Source: Bacteroidaceae bacterium (GTDB taxonomy: Bacteria > Bacteroidota > Bacteroidia > Bacteroidales > Bacteroidaceae). From it: a stretch of DNA of 47,705 nucleotides. Below, piece by piece: positions 11,174 through 32,035 of the stretch. The notes beneath the pieces are model-generated. The model was not told the DNA's origin. It did not search any database and saw only the letters and a program-made list of their open reading frames with translations. The stretch spans positions 1-47,705 of the forward strand of contig JAFUVZ010000048.1 of assembly GCA_017471185.1 (NCBI GenBank), read 5' to 3'. How positions within the stretch are numbered: the first letter of the stretch is position 1; each line of letters opens with the position of its first letter. A program made the translations under genes and the position numbers.

Positions 11174-11269
11174 AAAAACAGATACTAAAAGCTTAAATGC
11201 TTGGTTATATATAAATTAGTTAAACGTTCTTCGCCCCTTACCTGGAAGCTCAGTACATATTTGTTTGGA

Positions 11270-11440
11270 AAAGGTAGGTATTCTGGCTCTCCCGGAACTT
11301 GCATGGTCTTCCCATCGGTAAAGCCCGACAGTGACGCTTGTGGATGCAAGCCTAAATAGTGGGGATTACAGCTGCAGGAACAGCTCAGGTTTCTCACCTG
11401 ATTCCCTTAAGCCGACCGCTTGATGGCGGACGGTTGCCAA
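11270..11440 (-). promoter_or_regulatory. Cobalamin riboswitch
   Basis: Reading the minus strand, the segment has the order of a cobalamin aptamer: AAGGGAA, a GGTGAGAAACC hairpin, CTGTAATCCCC, a GTCACTG block, GATGGGAAGACC, and the B12 box gagCCAGAATACCTACC at 11273-11289. It lies in the roughly 270-base leader between a consensus promoter and the first receptor gene. No clear terminator is seen between the B12 box and the ATG at 11173, so control of translation or of a less obvious structure is more likely. Identification rests on the conserved sequence blocks. Confidence 0.92.
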
Positions 11441-11449
11441 TTCCGACTG

Positions 11450-11481
11450 CAAAGGTAATGTAATTTGATATTATAAGCAAA
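11450..11481 (-). promoter_or_regulatory. Promoter of the corrinoid operon
   Basis: On the minus strand TTTG (11481-11478) and TACCTTTG (11457-11450) are separated by 20 bases, the layout of the Bacteroidetes -33/-7 promoter. Transcription would start a few bases before the riboswitch. Confidence 0.75.
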
Positions 11482-23360: not shown

Positions 23361-23891
23361 TTAGGTATGCAGGTCGTCGCCATCACCAGCGTTTCCTCCG
23401 TCTCCGCCAGTTCCGGAATTTCCCTCTGTGGAAGACTCGCTGCCTGACGAGCTGCTGCTTGAGTTATCCGAAGATGCCTTGCCTTTGCTTTTCTCCGCAC
23501 CCCACAGTTCCCAAACAATCTCGTGTTGTGTCAATGCCCGTGTAACGGCACCGCTTTCCGTTTTCTCCCTTTCAGGTATGAAAGCCACTCTCACCGAGTT
23601 GATTTGCTTAGCACTCACCTTATCTTCAGAGTCAACACCGTTTTTTGACGTGTTGGCTGTGTAATAGAAAGTGCCTACACCGTCAAGCTTGACGGTTCTT
23701 CCCTGAGCCATGTAGAGACTCATCACATCACTCAGTCCTGCCAATACAGCGTAGATGTCTGCAGCGGTAACCGTACGGCCGTTTGCCAAGTCTTTAGCCA
23801 GCTGTTTCGTGCTGACAGGCTTGCCCCATGTTACTGAACGGGGATACCATTTCTGGCTTATTTTAGCATAATATTTTTTGAAAAATGCCAT
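23361..23891 (-). CDS. HU-family (HU-related) DNA-binding protein
   Basis: 176 residues. Residues 1 to about 125 match the Bacteroidales HU-related family: MAFFKKYYAKISQKWYPRSVTWGKPVST, then RTVTAADIYAVLAGLSDVM and a VKLDGVGTFYYT strand, with VRVAFIPE near the end. After about residue 137 the protein turns into a Ser/Gly/Asp low-complexity tail (SSSSSSGSESS; GTGGDGGNAGDGDD), probably disordered. One of three elements of about 95 nt lies upstream at 24045-24139. Confidence 0.85.
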   Translation of the reverse strand: MAFFKKYYAKISQKWYPRSVTWGKPVSTKQLAKDLANGRTVTAADIYAVLAGLSDVMSLYMAQGRTVKLDGVGTFYYTANTSKNGVDSEDKVSAKQINSVRVAFIPEREKTESGAVTRALTQHEIVWELWGAEKSKGKASSDNSSSSSSGSESSTEGNSGTGGDGGNAGDGDDLHT

Positions 23892-24246
23892 AATGTTTCA
23901 GTTTTAAAAAGTTAATAAACGTTTATATTCAACAGTAAAATGTTTGAATATGTGAAATTAATCTCTAAAAGACGGAACATTTTTGGCTTAAAACAAAAAA
24001 ACAGTTAATATTGCAATTGCCTACTAATGTTCCTGTCATTTGTTGGCGTTTAGTGCCGCCGGTCTCCGCAAGCCGTCAAACTTTCTGAGAGACCAGCCCC
24101 TTTGCCTCGCCCAATCCTGATTGGACGAGGCTTTTCTTATATAATTTTTATTCCATTATTTTTCCCTCCTATCCTTTTTATATAGGCATTGCTTTTCAAC
24201 ATTGCCTAAGGTTAAAATATCATCTTCACCAACAGTTTTATCTTGT
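23892..24246. other. Gene-free stretch containing structured element copy A
   Basis: 355 bases without a convincing gene. 23892-24044 is AT-rich leader of the HU-like gene; no good -7 box is seen. 24045-24139 is copy A of the triplicated element. 24140-24246 is AT-rich with no recognised feature. Confidence 0.6.
24045..24139 (+). ncRNA. Triplicated structured element, copy A (candidate small RNA or leader)
   Basis: Starts GGCGTTTAGTGCCGCC. It then has a GGTCTC...GAGACC helix and a terminator-like stem (24104-24131) followed by TTTTCTTAT on the plus strand. It is nearly identical to 25909-26003 and 27120-27205. One stem pair changes together across copies (C-G here, U-A in copy B, U-G in copy C), which supports an RNA structure. 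No consensus promoter is visible on the plus strand, so the direction of transcription is not settled; on the minus strand it precedes the HU-like gene. Confidence 0.5.
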
Positions 24247-24684
24247 TTAGCGCAGTTTTACTGACGGACAAAAGCTTTTGAGAATTGGACCATATTTCTT
24301 CATCTCGGCATTATTCATACTCCGAGCATCAGCAATTCGGGTAAACGTACCATCCTTGTTCTGTTTCCATACTTGCACATGTACAGTACCTCTCTCAAAT
24401 TTCCTTCTATCACCTTTGTTAGTATGAGTATGACTCCAGTCGAAATCCAAATAAGTCTTTTGGCCAATAAACACGCGAGCTTGACATACCCCATTTTCAT
24501 TCTGACGAAAATACACGTCAGACGTATTTGAATAAAAAGGAAGGTTGGTATGGGTATCGGAATCACCTTTTTTCTTTATCAAATGGCCTTTTACACCATT
24601 GACAGTTCTGGCTGGTTCCAATGACACATATTCTGAACGTCTTCCTTTCTCATCTCTCGAAAAGAAATCAGCCCCGTTTCCCAT
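24247..24684 (-). CDS. Unknown protein X1 (paralog of 26137-26583)
   Basis: 145 residues, not recognised. Features: basic overall; a His/Thr-rich segment SDTHTNLPFYSNTSDVYF; DFDWSHTHTN in the middle; VHVQVWKQNKDG; and a conserved end MKKYGPILKSFCPSVKLR. No signal peptide or membrane segment. About 85% identical by eye to X2 at 26137. Its start lies inside the end of gene Y1, overlapping by 17 bases, exactly as in the second copy. The basic protein after an acidic, overlapping partner recalls toxin/antitoxin or effector/immunity pairs, but nothing in the sequence proves that. The compact His-rich core and ending recall C-terminal domains of polymorphic toxins; this is a weak impression. Confidence 0.75.
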   Translation of the reverse strand: MGNGADFFSRDEKGRRSEYVSLEPARTVNGVKGHLIKKKGDSDTHTNLPFYSNTSDVYFRQNENGVCQARVFIGQKTYLDFDWSHTHTNKGDRRKFERGTVHVQVWKQNKDGTFTRIADARSMNNAEMKKYGPILKSFCPSVKLR

Positions 24685-25078
24685 TTTCTATGATATCATA
24701 GTTACGTTCATAATTAACCACATTATAGTCGCATTCGCGCAACCAATCCCATAGAGTGATATCTCTATCAATGAAACCGACTTCTTTCAGATTCAAAGCC
24801 AATGCTTCAGAGAGATTCATCACATGCTCTTCCTGAGCACCATTAGTCCCAATGCCATGTCCAATGACATATTCTTCAAAAATCTCCCGGACAACGTAAA
24901 TCTCATCGTTATTCTCATACTCAGAAACGAGCAGGTCGTTCAATAATGTACATTCATATTCCTGTTTGTACTTAATATTCTTAAAGAAATTTTCTTCATT
25001 AACAGACACATAATTACCTTCCATAGATGCGAAGAGTTTCTCGTCAACATCCCACAGTTTGTTTTTTTCTGTACTCAT
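24668..25078 (-). CDS. Unknown acidic protein Y1 (paralog of 26567-26977)
   Basis: 136 residues, rich in Glu/Asp. Seen: KLWDVDEKLFASMEGNY at the start, VSEYENNDEIYVVRE, GHGIGTNG, MNLSEALALNLKEVGF, LWDWLRECDYNVVNYE, and an end (IIENGKRG) encoded by the same bases as the start of X1. No family is recognised; no signal or membrane segment. The start ATG overlaps the stop of the DUF4417 gene by 4 bases (ATGA), so Z, Y1 and X1 form one coupled operon. The paralog Y2 is about 80% identical by eye. It could be the binding partner of X1 (inference). Confidence 0.75.
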   Translation of the reverse strand: MSTEKNKLWDVDEKLFASMEGNYVSVNEENFFKNIKYKQEYECTLLNDLLVSEYENNDEIYVVREIFEEYVIGHGIGTNGAQEEHVMNLSEALALNLKEVGFIDRDITLWDWLRECDYNVVNYERNYDIIENGKRG

Positions 25079-25764
25079 AGTTTTCTTAATTTTTCTTGTA
25101 TGAAGCAGGGGATAAATTTCAACGGAGTGTGGAGTCCCTGCACATCCACCACCTCACCGTAAACAATAATCAAGATAGGTTTTTTGGCTTCTTCCAGTCG
25201 GCGAAGACCGTAGCACCACCGATTAAACGCATCTACACTTCTTCTGTTTCCCATACCACTCACTGCTATGACGCTATGCGTAGGCAGGCCTTCAAAGCAA
25301 TAGGAAAAAGAAGACAAATCCCCCCAACTCGCTGTAGGAATTACATTGTAGCCGCATTGTTGCCAGTATGCTCCAATGAAGCGCGTGCGGTAAATGTTTT
25401 CTCTGTTATAGAAGTCTGTTGGCAGGTCTCGCCACAGAGACAGATCTGGAGTATAGACATAGTCAAACTTTCTGATTGAATATGTAGTGTTCTCAAGATT
25501 GCACCATACGGCATCTCGGAATCGATAGTCATCCAGGAAGAAGTGCAATGCTTCGTTCTTTCCATCATGTTTGTTCCTGTCTTGGTAGGAAACTGAAATA
25601 AAATCGATTGGCCCATCATAGGCTGACATTTGCGGATATCGAAGCCCATTCGTAAAAGTCATGCCAGACATTAGATGCATGTTTTCATGAATCATCTTCT
25701 TTCTTTGATGTTTAGGCATGTGGCCTAAGCGTCTTGACCTGCCAGTGTTAGTATGTTCCATCAT
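25075..25764 (-). CDS. DUF4417-family protein (gene Z)
   Basis: 230 residues from MMEHTNTGRSRRLGHMP. It matches the DUF4417 family known from phages and mobile regions: YDGPIDFISVSYQD, ALHFFLDDYRF, VYTPDLSLWRDLP, RTRFIGAYWQQCGYNVIPT, ASWGDLSSFSYCFEGLP, and ILIIVYGEVVDV near the end. No biochemical function is known to me. The longer start at 25806 is rejected: those 14 codons are the same leader that precedes Y2, where they are not in frame with the gene, and AAAAGGA lies 7-8 bases before ATG 25764. Only the left-hand cassette has this gene. Confidence 0.85.
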   Translation of the reverse strand: MMEHTNTGRSRRLGHMPKHQRKKMIHENMHLMSGMTFTNGLRYPQMSAYDGPIDFISVSYQDRNKHDGKNEALHFFLDDYRFRDAVWCNLENTTYSIRKFDYVYTPDLSLWRDLPTDFYNRENIYRTRFIGAYWQQCGYNVIPTASWGDLSSFSYCFEGLPTHSVIAVSGMGNRRSVDAFNRWCYGLRRLEEAKKPILIIVYGEVVDVQGLHTPLKFIPCFIQEKLRKL

Positions 25765-26136
25765 GTATATATCCTTTTTAGAAAACAACAAATTAATGTA
25801 TTCCATATAGAAATCTTATATTTAATTACTTAGTGAACTTGAATTTGATCAGCCTTTGAGTTTGTCTTATCCTGCATGTTCTCACTCAAGTTCAAATTAT
25901 CATTATCCGGCGTTTAGTGCCGCCAGTCTCCACAAGCCGTCAAACTTTCTGAGAGACCAGCCCCTTTGCCTCGCTCAATCCTGATTGAACGGGGCTTTTC
26001 TTATACTTTCTTTACGTCATAAGCGTTTCCTCCATACTTTATTATATGTGCGTATTAGCTAACAGTGGACTTCTCAATTCAGAGTTAGGATATACGCCCT
26101 GTTAATCACTTCTTCTAAAGTTTTCATTGTCAATTA
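25765..26136 (-). other. Leader of the Z-Y1-X1 operon with structured element copy B
   Basis: About 370 gene-free bases. 25766 to about 26000 is nearly identical to 26978-27205 upstream of Y2, a duplication of about 225 bases. It holds an inverted repeat TGAACTTGA / TCAAGTTCA, an AAAAGGA ribosome-binding site and copy B at 25909-26003. The rest, up to the X2 stop, shows nothing I recognise. Confidence 0.6.
25909..26003 (+). ncRNA. Triplicated structured element, copy B
   Basis: Same element as 24045-24139. Differences include compensating changes in the terminator-like stem (C-G to U-A; a U-A pair to U-G). It is followed by TTTTCTTAT on the plus strand. On the minus strand it lies about 145 bases upstream of the DUF4417 start. 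Confidence 0.5.
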
Positions 26137-26583
26137 TCACCTTCCTTTGCGCAGTTTTACCGATGGACAAAAGCTTTTGAGGATCGGACCGTATATCTTC
26201 ATCTCTGCATTGTTCATACTCCTTGCATCATCACTAACGCGAGAAAATGTTCCATTCTTGTTTTGCTTCCACATCTGAACATGAACAGTTCCTCTGTCGA
26301 ACTTTCTGCCATCAGAGTTGGTATGTGCATGACTCCAATCAAAATCAAGATATTTCTTTTGCCCAATATAAACACGAGCCTGGCATACCCCATTTTTGTT
26401 TTGTCTAAAATACACATCAGAAGTGTTTGAATAATAAGGGAGATTTGTATGAGTGTCCGAATCGCCAGCTTTCTTTATCAAATGGCCTTTCACTCCATTG
26501 ACAGTTCTGGTGGGTGACAGAGAAACATATTCAGAACGTCTTCCTCGCTCGTCCCTTGAAAAGAAATCAACCCCGTTTCCCAT
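26137..26583 (-). CDS. Unknown protein X2 (paralog of X1)
   Basis: 148 residues, basic, not recognised. It shares with X1 the DTHTNLPYYSNTSDVYF segment, DFDWSHAHTN, a VHVQMWKQNKNG strand and the end YGPILKSFCPSVKLR, plus three extra residues (KGR). The start overlaps gene Y2 by 17 bases, as in the first copy, so the overlap was copied or kept under selection. Base changes between the copies are many but the reading frame is intact in both, which argues for function. Confidence 0.75.
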   Translation of the reverse strand: MGNGVDFFSRDERGRRSEYVSLSPTRTVNGVKGHLIKKAGDSDTHTNLPYYSNTSDVYFRQNKNGVCQARVYIGQKKYLDFDWSHAHTNSDGRKFDRGTVHVQMWKQNKNGTFSRVSDDARSMNNAEMKIYGPILKSFCPSVKLRKGR

Positions 26584-26977
26584 TTTCTATAATGTCATAA
26601 TTACGTTCATAGTTAACCACACTATAGTCGCATTTCCGCAACCATTCCCACAAAGTCAGGTCTCTGTCTATGAAACCAAGTTCTTTCAGGTTCAAGGTCA
26701 ACGCTTCAGAAAGGTTCATCACATGTACTTCGTATTCGCCGTCCGTTCCAATGCCATGACCTACAACATATTCCTCGTTATATTCTCTTACCATGTAAAT
26801 TTCGTCATCATTTTCGTATTCCGACACGATAAGGTCATTGAGTCCAGTACATTCGTATTCTTGTTTATACCGCATATTCTTAAAGAAATTTTCCTCATTG
26901 ACCGACTGATATTTCCCTTCCATGGATGTGAAGAGTTTTTCATCAACATCCCATAATTTGTGCTTATTCATACTCAT
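26567..26977 (-). CDS. Unknown acidic protein Y2 (paralog of Y1)
   Basis: 136 residues: MSMNKHKLWDVDEKLFTSMEGKY, EYENDDEIYMVRE, GHGIGTDGEYEVHVMNLSEAL, LTLWEWLRKCDYSVVNYE. The start is ATG 26977, or ATG 26971 two codons on; AAAAGGA lies just upstream within the duplicated leader. There is no DUF4417 gene in front of this copy: the leader that precedes Z in the other cassette here joins Y2 directly, so the two cassettes differ by gain or loss of one gene. Confidence 0.75.
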   Translation of the reverse strand: MSMNKHKLWDVDEKLFTSMEGKYQSVNEENFFKNMRYKQEYECTGLNDLIVSEYENDDEIYMVREYNEEYVVGHGIGTDGEYEVHVMNLSEALTLNLKELGFIDRDLTLWEWLRKCDYSVVNYERNYDIIENGKRG

Positions 26978-27119
26978 ATATATCCTTTTTAGAAAACAAC
27001 AAATAAATGTATTCCATATAGAAATCTTATATTTAATTGCTTAGTGAACTTGAATTTGATCAGCCTTTGAGTTTGTCTTATCCTGCATGTTCTCACTCAA
27101 GTTCAAATTATCATTATCC

Positions 27120-27205
27120 GGCGTTTAGTGCCGCCGGTCTCCGCAAGCCGTCAAACTTTCTGAGAGACCAGCCCCTTTGCCTCGCTCAATCCTGATTGGA
27201 CGAGG
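27120..27205 (+). ncRNA. Triplicated structured element, copy C
   Basis: Third copy. The stem CCTCGCTCAAT / ATTGGACGAGG is kept (one pair now U-G), but the T-run after it is replaced by TATCTG, so a terminator role on the plus strand is lost here. It lies between the HigA-ImmA stop (27251) and Y2. Confidence 0.5.
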
Positions 27206-27250
27206 TATCTGTTTATCCTTTTATATCATAATTATATCCTCCATTTTCTG

Positions 27251-28363
27251 TCAGTTAATACATCTTGTTTCATCGCTTTTGAACATATACATGCCAGTTT
27301 CGTGCGACACGCGACCCAGTGCTATCCACTTGTTCAACCCTTGTTTCATTGCCCATGCTGAATACTTTTTCTGGATTATGTAAGGGTTCATGGGTACTTG
27401 GGGAGCATCTTTCCATAAATCATTAGGAATCAGAATCTCAGCGGCATACTTATTTGCCTCTGCCTCTATCTTTGGTAACAAATCCTCGTCTTCAGTGGCA
27501 AGGTTCAGGTTGCTCTCGTACTCTTTCCTGTCAGAATGCATCTTCAGGTGACCCACCTCATGCAACACTGCAAAAGACAAATTGTCAATTCTGTCAAAAC
27601 GCTTTGTTACCACAATGGCCGGTACACCGTCTTTGATAAACGAGAAGCCGTCAACCGATGCCAGTTTCACCTTGGGTGTGATGCAGAACCTGATGCCGTA
27701 TTCGGCCAGCTTCCACTCCACACGGTTCATGGTGTTGTGGTTTTCCATGAAAATCTCTCTCAGCTCGAATGCAAGGTCATCCATGCGATTCTTGTCAAAC
27801 TTGCCCTGCGGTATGGGACGCTGTGATGCGCTGTATCTGGCCAGTGCAGTCCAGGTGGCAATCATTCTCGGGTCGTTTCCTGTCTTCTCCGACCGATGGT
27901 ACCAGCCGATCGCCTTGCGCTGTAACTCCGAGGAATACTGGAGTCCCAGAATGTTTTCGCAGAACTCAAGCCGCTCCGGGGCCGTCATCTTGCTTATGCC
28001 TATGCTTTTGTAGATAGTCCTCATGTCGAGAATCTCGTCATACTTGCTCAGTTCATTCTCAGCTTTCCTTACTTCCTCGTCCTGTTGTTCCGACAGCTTG
28101 ACTTCATAATCATATCTGAGCTGCAGCTTTATCCAATATGCTGCCGGTAAGCCCAGTGTTTCTTCCAGCTTTGCAGCCAGTTGGCTGCTGATGTTCCGTT
28201 TCCCCTTGATGACCTCCGTGAGGTGCGACGGCTGTAGGCCAATCTGCATCGCAAGTGCTTTCCTTGTCATCCCCCGGCTTTTCAGTTCTTCTCCAATGTA
28301 ATATCCGGGGTGTACAGGCTCCTGCATTAGTGAATTTCCTTTCATTGTTTTCATTTCTTTCAT
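27251..28363 (-). CDS. HigA-type antitoxin fused to ImmA/IrrE (M78) metallopeptidase
   Basis: 370 residues. Residues about 16-80 form a HigA-type XRE helix-turn-helix (GEELKSRGMTRKALAMQIGLQ, then HLTEVIKGKRNIS). The C-terminal half is an ImmA/IrrE zinc peptidase with HEVGH at 268-272 and EAEANKYAAEILIP (about 300-313). In such fusions the HTH part represses the operon and binds the toxin, while the peptidase may control the release. The gene follows a short putative toxin gene, the normal HigB-HigA order. Four in-frame ATG codons lie within the first 13 codons, so the exact start is uncertain. Confidence 0.85.
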   Translation of the reverse strand: MKEMKTMKGNSLMQEPVHPGYYIGEELKSRGMTRKALAMQIGLQPSHLTEVIKGKRNISSQLAAKLEETLGLPAAYWIKLQLRYDYEVKLSEQQDEEVRKAENELSKYDEILDMRTIYKSIGISKMTAPERLEFCENILGLQYSSELQRKAIGWYHRSEKTGNDPRMIATWTALARYSASQRPIPQGKFDKNRMDDLAFELREIFMENHNTMNRVEWKLAEYGIRFCITPKVKLASVDGFSFIKDGVPAIVVTKRFDRIDNLSFAVLHEVGHLKMHSDRKEYESNLNLATEDEDLLPKIEAEANKYAAEILIPNDLWKDAPQVPMNPYIIQKKYSAWAMKQGLNKWIALGRVSHETGMYMFKSDETRCIN

Positions 28364-28829: not shown

Positions 28830-31800
28830 TTAATTATATAAGGTATCGTCAATCTCCCGCATGATTCTTTCTGTTAAAGTCAAGGCATGGATTATCTCCT
28901 GATAATGGCGTATGTCCTCAAAGCTGAGGCGGCTACCCTTGCGGTCTTTTAGCCACTTCTGTGTTGGCTGATAGCCGCCGATATAGAAGTTCCATGCCGA
29001 TTCCGGTATATTGGAAAAATACTGGTTTTCATTGATATGAACGCATCCGTCCTTATACTCCAATTTGTTTACCTCTCCGCTGCCGGGCATGGGAAACTGC
29101 GTGGCCACAGGCCAGGACTGGCTGTCTTCCATCAGGTGTAGCTGACGAAGCTCCTTGCCTTTGGCAGCCATATTTATATATAAGGTGTAGTCGTTGGGGT
29201 AGGGAATGCGGGGAAAGTCTATCTTGAGAAACTCCTTGTAGGTCTCGCGGTAACGGGGGCTATGCAGCACGGCGTAGATGTAGTCAAAAAGTTCCAGCGG
29301 CTCCACCTTCTCGCCCAGGCCTGCCTCTATCTTGGCGATTATCTCTGGGTTGAAGTTTGGCACAAGCTCGCTTTTTTCCTCAAAAATCGAGTCGGCAGAG
29401 CCGACATTATATAAAGGGAAAAAAGAGGCATTGTCTTTTGAAGACAAGTATGTCTTGTCAACTATAGTATTTGTGATGAAAACTTTGAACATAGCATCCC
29501 GATTGACACGAATCACGCAAATGGCCAAATTCCAATGGTTTAACATGTGACGCAACGAATGGTATCGTGGCCAGGCCACGATACCATTCGTTTTCCCTGT
29601 ATAATAAAGGAATTTCGTTTCAAATGGCCGATAGGAGATGCTTGTTACTTTTTCTTTGAGGAAAATATTCCCAACATCATCCTTAGCCCTTTGGATGCTC
29701 CAGTCTCTGCTGTCAGATAGGTTATAGGTAGCACGAAGTCTCTCTATATCCCATGTTATCAAGTGGCTTATGCGCTCTTCTACTACTTGGGGTGTATCGC
29801 AAATAACAAAATTATCTTTTGATGTGGTGATTCCTAAGGTGTTGATGGAAAACAATTCATTAATCTTGAAGCCGAGGTTATATGTTTCCTCTCCAGTAAA
29901 GTCTTTAGGTACAAAGAAATAATATGGTTCAGTGCAGTCTATTTTAGTCCATTCATCAGTGTTAATATCCAATGCATTCAATACTTCGTATTTATAGTTT
30001 CTGCTGCCGAACAAGTCTCTGTGATGTACGTTTGCCAGCTGGTCTTTTTGCTTTCTTCCAGTCTTTACAAAGATGTTGATGCTGACTCCCTGCTGTATGT
30101 CAAACACGTTCTCGTCTTTGCTGCCATCTGGTGCAGTCTCTTTCTTCTTGGCATTTCCATGCAGGTCAACAATGTAGATGTCATCAAAAGTATCAAGCAG
30201 CTTGCGGCGCATCTGGCGGTGTATGATGCCGTCGATGAACGAGTTGTTAGTGATGAAAGCCAATATGCCCTCTCCGTTTTTCTCAATATAATGCTGTCCG
30301 AGCCTTATGAACTTGATATAATCGTCAGACAATGGCTGGATGTTACGCTCGTTAAGGTCTTTTTTATAGTCTTCAATCAGGTTGTTAATCCACTCTCCTT
30401 TGTTCTGGCTGCTCACGCTGTAGGGGGGATTTCCTATCATCACCATCACGGGTGTGTCGCGCTTGATGATGTTGGCACGGTTAGCTTCCTGGCTGAGCCA
30501 ATAGGCAAAGAGCGAGCCTGTAGCCTCATCTGCCTCTTCAAGCGAATTGGTAAGAAGAAGGTTCATTACTGGCAAGTCTTTGTCTGAAAGGTCGCTGTAT
30601 TCTTTCAATTGCAGAAATATCTTCATGTGGGCAATGGTATATGGAGCCACCATCACCTCGAAGCCGAATATTCTTGGCAGCAGGTATGAGCGGAGATAGG
30701 AATTCCACATGCCTTCGTTGCCTACAAATTTTTGCTTCACCTGCTTTATGATTTCTGAAATGAAAGTTCCTGTGCCCATAGCGGGGTCGAGTATCTGAAC
30801 ACGGAAGAGGTCTTTGCTGACATGCTTCTTTTTATCAGACGTGCGCTTGTCGGAACTCTGCTCAACCGATACCGTGTGCGACACCTTACTATAGTCAGCC
30901 AGTCCCATCTTTAATCCGAAATCCTTCTGGAGAATTTCATCAACCGCTCTTACGATAAACTTCACCACTGGCTGAGGAGTGTACCATACGCCTTTAGCCT
31001 TGCGCAGGCTTGGGTCGTAAGCTGCAAGGAAGTCTTCATAGAAATGCATCATGGGGTCTGTTCGCTGTGTGTCCTCATGGTAGCCTTTGAGTATCTTCTG
31101 CATATCTGTTGCCCCAAAAGCAGTCACAAGGTCATCAATAATCCATTCGATGCGCGAGTCAAGGTCAAGACCGGCTATTTGTTGGAACAGGTTTCTGAGA
31201 AAGGGGCTTGTCTTTGGTATCAGGCTTAGTGCCTCATAGCGTGAAAAATCTTCTGGGGTCTTATCATTCAACCGCGCGGCAAACAGACCATAGACGATGG
31301 TTTGTGCATACACATCAGCAAAAGAGTGAGGTGTTATGTCGTGAAGCAGCACACGGCGGAATGTCTCCATCTGCTCATGAAGCCCTGCCTGGGATATTGC
31401 TTCTGGCGGAATCTGAAACAATCCTGAGGCTTCTTCGTTTGCATGGTTCTCTTTTTCTTCATCGGAAACAACTGCCTGACCGATGATATTGGCCAGCAGA
31501 CGGGCCTTGCCTGCCATCAACTTTGCCAGGTGAGATGCCGATGTGATGCGCTGGATGCCCGAAACTCCCAGATGCTGTATCATGGAGAGAAACTTGTTTT
31601 CGGCTCCGGTAATGCCTGCAATCCTGTCTCCTTTGATTTCCGCAATCCTCACGCTATCGACAAATACTCCTTGTTCATACAGATGAAAGTCCAGATAGTC
31701 AGTGAAAATTATGTGGTCGAGAGCCTGTTTGTAACGGTTGAACTGTTCTTTGTGTTGTCGGCGACCGTCAAGGTCGGAGTCGGCAATGTCTTTGGCCTCC

Positions 31801-32006
31801 ACAAAAAAAACAGGCAGACCATTTTGCCTGTGCGTGATAATGTAGTCGGGAGCCCCACAGTCTATGCGTGCAGGCTCGTTAGTTACAATCATACCCGGCA
31901 GCAGGCTTGCCAGCAGCTCCTTCAGCGCAGGGCGGTAGCTGTGTTCGCGTGCGTTGCCGGTCTGATACTGTGTGTTCAGTTCTCTGATGTATTCCTTGAT
32001 GTTCAT
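28830..32006 (-). CDS. Single-chain type ISP/IIG restriction-modification enzyme (N6-adenine methylase + nuclease)
   Basis: 1058 residues from MNIKEYIRELNTQY. A PD-(D/E)XK-like nuclease site lies near the N-terminus (APDY at 52-55 and EAK at 70-72). A helical connector follows, then an N6-adenine methyltransferase: motif I DPAMGTGTF (407-415) and motif IV GNPPYS (525-530). The remaining 500 residues should hold target recognition and end in helices. ATG 32006 is used: AGGAAG precedes it, and the longer frame would begin inside the -7 box at 32028-32035. No separate methylase, specificity or helicase subunit is nearby. It should cut unmodified foreign DNA. Confidence 0.85.
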   Translation of the reverse strand: MNIKEYIRELNTQYQTGNAREHSYRPALKELLASLLPGMIVTNEPARIDCGAPDYIITHRQNGLPVFFVEAKDIADSDLDGRRQHKEQFNRYKQALDHIIFTDYLDFHLYEQGVFVDSVRIAEIKGDRIAGITGAENKFLSMIQHLGVSGIQRITSASHLAKLMAGKARLLANIIGQAVVSDEEKENHANEEASGLFQIPPEAISQAGLHEQMETFRRVLLHDITPHSFADVYAQTIVYGLFAARLNDKTPEDFSRYEALSLIPKTSPFLRNLFQQIAGLDLDSRIEWIIDDLVTAFGATDMQKILKGYHEDTQRTDPMMHFYEDFLAAYDPSLRKAKGVWYTPQPVVKFIVRAVDEILQKDFGLKMGLADYSKVSHTVSVEQSSDKRTSDKKKHVSKDLFRVQILDPAMGTGTFISEIIKQVKQKFVGNEGMWNSYLRSYLLPRIFGFEVMVAPYTIAHMKIFLQLKEYSDLSDKDLPVMNLLLTNSLEEADEATGSLFAYWLSQEANRANIIKRDTPVMVMIGNPPYSVSSQNKGEWINNLIEDYKKDLNERNIQPLSDDYIKFIRLGQHYIEKNGEGILAFITNNSFIDGIIHRQMRRKLLDTFDDIYIVDLHGNAKKKETAPDGSKDENVFDIQQGVSINIFVKTGRKQKDQLANVHHRDLFGSRNYKYEVLNALDINTDEWTKIDCTEPYYFFVPKDFTGEETYNLGFKINELFSINTLGITTSKDNFVICDTPQVVEERISHLITWDIERLRATYNLSDSRDWSIQRAKDDVGNIFLKEKVTSISYRPFETKFLYYTGKTNGIVAWPRYHSLRHMLNHWNLAICVIRVNRDAMFKVFITNTIVDKTYLSSKDNASFFPLYNVGSADSIFEEKSELVPNFNPEIIAKIEAGLGEKVEPLELFDYIYAVLHSPRYRETYKEFLKIDFPRIPYPNDYTLYINMAAKGKELRQLHLMEDSQSWPVATQFPMPGSGEVNKLEYKDGCVHINENQYFSNIPESAWNFYIGGYQPTQKWLKDRKGSRLSFEDIRHYQEIIHALTLTERIMREIDDTLYN

Positions 32007-32027
32007 GGTTCCACTTCCTAAATGGTG

Positions 32028-32035
32028 CAAAGTTA
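32028..32035 (-). promoter_or_regulatory. -7 box of the restriction-modification gene
   Basis: TAACTTTG on the minus strand, 21 bases upstream of ATG 32006. It decides the start codon. Confidence 0.55.

Follow-up and report, generated by a model that had tools for sequence, protein, structure and literature searches.

A DUF4417-associated acidic/basic gene unit with a predicted opposite-strand small RNA: a candidate phage-derived, toxin-antitoxin-like module of Bacteroidales

The subject of this study is a gene unit that occurs twice in a 47,705-nucleotide contig of a Bacteroidaceae bacterium (GCA_017471185.1, JAFUVZ010000048.1), the whole of which we call the window. Its genes encode a DUF4417 protein, a small acidic protein (Y) and a small basic protein (X), and a structured element lies on the opposite strand. 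Its closest described counterparts fall into four groups. Type II toxin-antitoxin modules, including those with Ntox24 toxins (PMC3482391), resemble it in their small coupled genes, acidic partner first and basic, toxin-like partner second, and in their defence setting; Ntox24 itself is a predicted metal-independent ribonuclease (RNase) that occurs in toxin-antitoxin systems too. AbiF with RCd22 and the type III toxin-antitoxin systems (PMC12373285) likewise combine a toxin-like protein with a structured RNA and have a phage connection; AbiF is a toxin of phages that its small RNA neutralises, regulating as well as binding it. The MuF polymorphic toxins of temperate phages (PMC5576092), which are borne in packaging modules, are comparable in their variable toxic C-termini and in the proximity of their genes to packaging genes. 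Finally, DUF4417 (PF14386) proteins themselves are found in phages and also fused to ParB-CTPase folds (PMC12704722).

The units in the window depart from each of these. In comparison with type II modules they add a third gene (DUF4417) and a small RNA predicted to be divergent, their likeness to Ntox24 is below threshold and Y matched none of the known antitoxin families. Unlike AbiF/RCd22 and type III systems, their RNA is predicted on the opposite strand, their leaders contain no tandem repeats (none was found within 23900-27300) and a protein antitoxin candidate is present besides. In contrast to MuF toxins, the constant part of the related effectors is a short MGGRG start, DUF4417 is a separate partner and the bacterial loci add Y and the RNA; and whereas DUF4417 is phage-encoded or ParB-fused elsewhere, here it is a separate, unfused protein whose gene shares a chromosomal operon with those of Y and X. 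A full-text literature search of partial coverage returned no account of a DUF4417-Y-X unit, which may be described elsewhere. Our results suggest, at a probability of roughly 0.48, that the window carries two units of a phage-derived, RNA-accompanied, toxin-antitoxin-like defence module made up of the small RNA, DUF4417, Y and X.

Organization and history of the DUF4417-Y-X units

The protein-coding parts of the two units are as follows.

24247-24684, minus strand: X1, a basic protein of 145 amino acids with conserved histidines, predicted effector or toxin (open reading frame, ORF)
24668-25078, minus strand: Y1, an acidic protein of 136 amino acids, predicted antitoxin or immunity protein (ORF)
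25075-25806, minus strand: DUF4417 protein (PF14386) of 243 amino acids, the conserved first gene of the unit (Pfam)
26137-26583, minus strand: X2, the second copy of X, 148 amino acids (ORF)
26567-26977, minus strand: Y2, the second copy of Y, 136 amino acids (ORF)
26964-27017, minus strand: remnant of the DUF4417 start in unit 2, 17 codons, MEYIYLLFSKKDIYEYE*

A sequence-only reading of this DNA had described X and Y as a twice-occurring acidic/basic pair with an identical 17-nucleotide overlap and intact frames, and in this it was right: the overlap is 17 nucleotides in both copies, the proteins are 87% (X) and 82% (Y) identical, their coding DNA is 77-78% identical, and the predicted isoelectric points (pI) are 9.8 and 9.9 for X and 4.4 and 4.5 for Y. 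The comparison of nonsynonymous with synonymous change that it had proposed gave proportions of differences (NG86 counts) of 0.08 (nonsynonymous, pN) and 0.64 (synonymous, pS) for X, and of 0.10 and 0.76 for Y. Since synonymous sites are near saturation, the copies must be old and both frames have long been under strong purifying selection, which is not relaxed. The DUF4417 label given to the third gene is also correct (134.5 bits, against a Pfam gathering cut-off of 28.9). The window X and Y have no match of note in Pfam, NCBIfam, PHROG or PADLOC, Y reaches no Pfam family above its cut-off and no known antitoxin family, and neither X, Y nor DUF4417 matches any of Pfam's Abi families.

Relatives of X were sought in 301 genomes of the family, in genome contigs by means of one degenerate pattern, and in viral contigs. 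The single-sequence search matched five of the 301 genomes, the window's own included, and the pattern yielded 23 loci in genome contigs and two in viral contigs. Four of the 23 are, to judge by the position and length of their contigs, family-genome finds met again (L012 = L006, L031 = L008, L032 = L010, L033 = L009), and one X fragment from the family genomes (L007) was left out of the resulting set of 25 loci (L011-L035), nearly all of which belong to Bacteroidales. The order DUF4417-Y-X is present in 20 of the 25 (19 genome contigs and one viral contig). BLAST groups the Y proteins of 18 of these 20; in L032 and L033, whose Y remained ungrouped at 1e-6, Y was assigned by place, and the profile that found both had been built including them, so that 18 of the 25 loci are full by sequence and two more by place. 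In L012 and L026, Y and X accompany a broken or missing DUF4417, Y is missing from a phage contig (L035) that carries DUF4417 and X, and L028 and L030 hold fragments of X only. The 'two-gene system' of the sequence-only reading must accordingly be enlarged by DUF4417, open and in place in 20 of the 25 loci, and its statement that one copy had been extended by DUF4417 has to be reversed: the window's second pair has lost this gene, of which the 17-codon remnant is left.

With start codons chosen by us, DUF4417 and Y overlap by 4-32 nucleotides in all 20 full loci, and the Y/X junction is an overlap of 17 nucleotides in nine, one of 8 or 11 in two, and touching or within 3 nucleotides in nine. 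Y and X thus have the type II trait of adjacent, coupled small genes, as judged by adjacency and coupling alone. The pI values range from 8.9 to 10.0 for X and from 4.3 to 5.1 for Y across the full loci, and pairwise distances correlate strongly (X-Y, r 0.93; X-DUF4417, r 0.91; Y-DUF4417, r 0.92), correlations which could equally come from shared descent and the long branches of L032 and L033.

An X profile run over 393 genomes of the order matched the window's genome only, and neither the window X, compared with plasmids and phages by tblastn, nor the X of the L035 phage contig, searched in phages, found a relative there. Y occurs in six of the 301 family genomes, five with X plus one (G007) without an X match, where the Y relative is in two overlapping pieces (G007:C10:24125-24495); a one-pattern scan of viral contigs found Y on the L034 contig only, which also carries DUF4417 and X. 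DUF4417 was detected in 16 of the 301 genomes by profile and X in five by single-sequence search, two figures that are not strictly comparable given the different search types.

Positions 25766-25994 are 97% identical to 26977-27205, and the DUF4417 remnant of unit 2 overlaps this stretch, which corresponds to the DUF4417 leader and first codons of unit 1. Y2 shares 87.5% identity with its L012 homologue from another genome and 81.6% with Y1. X2, by contrast, shares 86.8% with X1 and 83.4% with its L012 homologue; the tree left the fork of the window copies and L012 unresolved. A simple recent tandem duplication was rejected as the whole story in view of the near-saturated synonymous sites, the affinity of Y2 to L012 and the near identity of leader and RNA; a more probable course, on which the tree does not decide, is ancient divergence combined with conversion or insertion by way of the leader.

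Phage relatives of X and DUF4417

Across the 25 aligned X sequences D80, H87, H102 and R116 are invariant. Their N-termini begin MGNG, MGNQ, MGGQ, MGSG and the like; MG alone is invariant, and the GGRG tag is not a feature of X. X-like proteins that start with MGGRG stand directly after DUF4417, or one gene later, in Roseburia, Dorea and Streptococcus phage records, and an X-like protein precedes DUF4417 in three unannotated faecal phage contigs (L043, L047, L049) and in L081. Aligned with a profile of eight such phage proteins, X gave a P value of 6e-4 and a probability of 28%. When the profile was enlarged to 16 DUF4417-linked proteins by intermediates whose genes adjoin further DUF4417 genes (L077-L081 of the family genomes and the viral L127, taken as DUF4417 neighbours whether or not they lie in prophages), hhalign returned a colinear alignment of columns 1-143 to 1-127 with a probability of 96% and a P value of 2.9e-9, which is optimistic because the profile was chosen with X in mind; unrelated profile pairs used as controls gave 0.27 and 0.45. 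We take these alignments to establish that X is homologous to DUF4417-adjacent proteins of phages and related genomes. The earlier statement that no family is known for X or Y thus holds for curated libraries at threshold and is partly answered for X by these proteins.

Fainter resemblances bear on what X may do. Ntox24 (PF15529) is reached by one of the 25 operon-type X proteins (L033, E-value 0.031, 15.0 bits) and by three of the eight phage X-like proteins (best E-value 0.018). The L033 protein also resembles DUF6978 (E-value 5e-4, below the Pfam cut-off), and single X members resemble PHROG entries (best E-value 0.0013). A search for Ntox24 in 247 genomes of the class was without a match, a negative that carries no weight since its control was silent too, and sequence profiles of X, DUF4417, Y and the phage X-like proteins found no credible match among solved structures. 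In the reading favoured here, X would most likely be an RNase-type toxin related to the tagged phage proteins and, distantly, to Ntox24.

A further 92 DUF4417 loci (L076-L087, L090-L169) extend the picture: 12 come from family genomes and the others are the 80 best among 239 viral loci; 91 were usable. Within 60 nucleotides downstream of DUF4417, 45 of the 91 have a gene that carries GGRG near its start, as compared with 4 of 268 other ORF ends; since many of the phages are close relatives, these cases are not independent. The pattern was chosen after a looser look at the next ORF, in which a G-x-R-G start occurred in 47 of the 92 loci. By their C-terminal parts the 45 tagged proteins form 17 groups, and the genes following DUF4417 may therefore represent a polymorphic class of phage effectors, with DUF4417 as the possible constant partner of the variable proteins. 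Some of the tagged proteins we take to resemble ADP-ribosyltransferases, metallopeptidases or JAB proteins; two that were scanned (L039, L040) have no Pfam family and no credible PDB match. Terminase genes lie close downstream of DUF4417 in four of six annotated phage records, an arrangement also present in a table of PMC8066415. DUF4417 further matches PHROG 940, labelled nuclease, the match covering positions 194-361 of 388.

The opposite-strand element and the surrounding genes

An element that was absent from the sequence-only reading is present in three copies, each folding on the strand opposite the genes into stem-loops of which the last is a terminator-like hairpin.

24045-24130, plus strand: R3, predicted small-RNA core and terminator-like hairpin downstream of X1 (fold z-score -2.96 for 24014-24142, plus strand)
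25909-25994, plus strand: R2, predicted small-RNA core between X2 and DUF4417 (fold z-score -1.76)
27120-27205, plus strand: R1, predicted small-RNA core upstream of Y2 (fold z-score -1.75)

A degenerate pattern built from the copies of this 86-nucleotide core has these three matches in the window and none in 100 shuffles. R1 and R3 differ at one position, and R2 differs from them at four and five. Ahead of R3 is a promoter-like sequence with one mismatch (TTG at 23983, N20, TAATATTG at 24006). Within the 301 family genomes the core occurs in the window's genome alone, in these three copies, and a 33-nucleotide piece of it has no exact match in viral contigs.

More distant relatives were surveyed for a promoter and terminator on the matching strand of 21 DUF4417 loci, namely the 20 full ones and the phage contig L035. 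In 18 of the 21, by the looser of two tests, a TAnnTTTG box is followed by a hairpin with a T-run, the two enclosing 85-126 nucleotides that fold into further stem-loops. The stricter test was passed by 17 of the 21, as compared with none of 194 control ORF starts (other starts in L011-L035, including those of Y and X and many operon-internal ones) and one of 420 shuffles; the two tests picked different hairpins in L029. The element is missing in L013, L025 and L035, and L034 passes the looser test only. A TTG at the right spacing accompanies the box in 13 of 20 loci, and a full forward promoter was seen in one of 20. L013, which lacks the element, has a forward TAnnTTTG box about 296 nucleotides before DUF4417. 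In the relatives the element is thus predicted to be a small RNA with a Bacteroidetes-type promoter box and a terminator.

A covariance model trained on five relatives only found four non-training matches at the expected place and strand: L031 (E-value 0.018), L017 (0.85), L018 (2.1) and, weakly, R2 of the window (25931-26004, plus strand, 11.2 bits, E-value 6.8). One match elsewhere (L014:9311, E-value 0.29) was taken as chance. When up to 150 candidates per genome were scored in 15 host genomes, the model gave one match in each of seven, these being the five training copies, the L031 operon and a position away from the operon in the L017 host (E-value 0.51), which was likewise taken as chance. 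In the RNAalifold consensus of the five training sequences, 3 of 20 pairs are kept by double changes. The sole Rfam match in the window is a cobalamin riboswitch elsewhere (RF00174, 70 bits, 11256-11456, minus strand), and the 14 related loci scanned had none; the RNA may be among the structured RNAs of human microbiomes that are the subject of PMC8040213.

Two roles for the element were tried and rejected. A coding role is contradicted by its longest ORFs, which are of 0 to 28 codons and not conserved, and action as a trans-antisense of its own operon's gene starts by mean ranks of 10.3 (DUF4417), 9.4 (Y) and 9.6 (X) of 18. Were the operon transcribed from upstream, the RNA and a leader would overlap in cis. 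On the minus strand beside each element (24148-24172, 26012-26036, 27221-27243) is a GGAGG-like site followed by a two-codon ORF (ATG-NNN-TAA), an arrangement unusual for Bacteroidetes; leader peptides were rejected as an explanation, the same letters ending the upstream gene in L021 and the ORF overlapping the upstream stop in L011.

The neighbouring genes agree with the HigA-ImmA and restriction-modification setting described earlier. Upstream of unit 2 is a variable gene that is not part of the core.

27251-28363, minus strand: HigA/ImmA-like gene (HTH_3 and Peptidase_M78; Pfam)

A member of the same BLAST group lies upstream in four of the 25 loci (L021, L022, L023, L027), and L011 has another HTH-Peptidase_M78 gene there. 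In seven of the 25 (L014, L015, L017, L020, L024, L032, L034) the HigA/ImmA-like gene is replaced upstream of DUF4417 by a conserved gene for 119-150 amino acids; Pfam gave a sub-threshold match for one of two family members scanned and none for the other. Downstream, a GmrSD_N (DUF262) gene and a type II methyltransferase gene are found together in seven of the 25. Positions 28830-32030 of the window match PADLOC models of type IIG restriction enzyme-methyltransferases. PADLOC models match nine of ten hand-picked neighbours, consisting of this enzyme and eight of nine from relatives: seven in restriction-modification (the window's enzyme included), one in ATPase defence and one in the candidate system PDC-S14; L021:922-2211 is the neighbour that no PADLOC model matched. 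A gene for a HU-HIG DNA-binding protein follows R3 (23361-23891, minus strand; Pfam).

Interpretation and alternatives

In a simplified view of the module, X would be the effector, an RNase-type toxin, and acidic Y would serve as the antitoxin dedicated to it, produced before X and coupled to it in translation. DUF4417, as the ancestral partner of the effector class, may hold X, recognise its tag or trigger it, and the divergent small RNA would help to keep the unit silent, either as an RNA antitoxin or as a regulator of the leader; alternatively, it may be a sensor whose loss upon phage infection frees X. The antitoxin-toxin logic proposed in the sequence-only reading survives as the best interpretation, in line with the coupled acidic/basic pair, the purifying selection and the defence neighbours, with the amendment that DUF4417 belongs to the unit too. 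Homology and architecture are computed results; toxicity of X, neutralisation by Y, the parts played by DUF4417 and the RNA, and defence against phage would follow from them as predictions.

Several results weigh against this interpretation. PADLOC models match none of the five window proteins (X1, Y1, DUF4417, X2, Y2; E-value up to 1), neither window X matches Ntox24 at an E-value up to 1, and the best Ntox24 scores of 15.0 bits (X) and 15.7 (phage X-like proteins) stay below the cut-off of 24. Intact DUF4417 is absent from three units that have Y and X (L012, L026 and window unit 2), which implies that it may be dispensable. As to the RNA, a canonical promoter was found at none of the three window copies, and the RNA pairs no better with the gene starts of its own operon than with those of other operons. 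The covariation term from RNAalifold is unfavourable (+2.28) and the central stem lies outside the consensus, so that covariation leaves the structure unproven. The limits of the promoter/terminator test (17 of 21) and of the tag pattern (45 of 91) were, moreover, fixed after inspection of the same loci.

These points bear on other explanations, of which the one confined to the RNA deserves the most weight even though we think it unlikely: the opposite-strand element could be a mere terminator and promoter that insulate the operon. Little sequence likeness among the elements of distant relatives, the unfavourable covariation term, the want of a conserved ORF or of specific pairing to the operon's starts, the missing canonical promoter in the window and the loss of the element in L013, L025 and L035 are all as expected of an insulator. 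It would be less expected of one that box and terminator enclose 85-126 nucleotides with further stem-loops in 18 of 21 loci, that four of the five non-training covariance matches fall at the expected spot and strand, though only one has an E-value below 0.1, and that the 86-nucleotide core differs at just one to five positions while the coding DNA is 77-78% identical, a contrast that recent conversion could partly explain. Less probable is a defence function for the whole unit with the roles exchanged, DUF4417 being the catalytic part and X serving to sense or to bind nucleic acid. The wider spread of DUF4417 (16 versus 5 of 301 genomes, by different search types) and the nuclease label of PHROG 940 point this way; however, that label may stem from a fused ParB domain, to judge from the matched positions (194-361 of 388), Y-X persists in the three units without intact DUF4417, and it is X that has the invariant D80, H87, H102 and R116 in 25 sequences, all of which makes a catalytic DUF4417 quite improbable.

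The phage relatives invite a different account, in which the unit is a domesticated phage cassette rather than a toxin-antitoxin system: DUF4417 and a tagged protein such as X would act in phage packaging, injection or superinfection, the bacterial copies would interfere with incoming phages or competitors, and Y would be an accessory subunit. The succession of DUF4417 and a GGRG-tagged gene (45 of 91 loci against 4 of 268 controls), the terminase genes nearby in four of six annotated records and in the table of PMC8066415, and the enrichment of ParB-DUF4417 fusions in prophage regions reported in PMC12704722 speak for such a cassette. An antitoxin and a defence role nevertheless fit better with the addition of acidic Y in chromosomal loci among restriction genes, and the one viral contig on which the one-pattern scan met Y also holds DUF4417 and X; we rate this cassette as somewhat more plausible than a catalytic DUF4417 and still improbable. 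The least probable explanation is that Y and X alone form a simple toxin-antitoxin pair, DUF4417 and the RNA being passengers unrelated to it. The strong Y-X coupling and the occurrence of Y-X without intact DUF4417 in L012, L026 and window unit 2 would suit it, yet 20 of the 25 loci have an open, coupled DUF4417 gene, the X-like genes of phages adjoin DUF4417 too, and the RNA element accompanies the unit.

The toxin-antitoxin-like module can be extended to a bolder proposal, which we offer as speculation with only a little more credence than we give the phage cassette. Phages would encode a widespread class of effectors with a tagged N-terminus and a polymorphic C-terminus, and DUF4417 would be their constant carrier or trigger. 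Bacteroidales would have captured one line of these effectors into a new type of abortive-infection system with four RNA and protein components, where RNA, DUF4417 and Y together would hold X until phage infection.

To our knowledge, RNA-containing toxin systems are little known in the defence islands of Bacteroidales, to which the present work adds a candidate small RNA. An orphan gene pair becomes a defined module with testable parts, and a first role is suggested for DUF4417, that of a partner of variable phage effectors.

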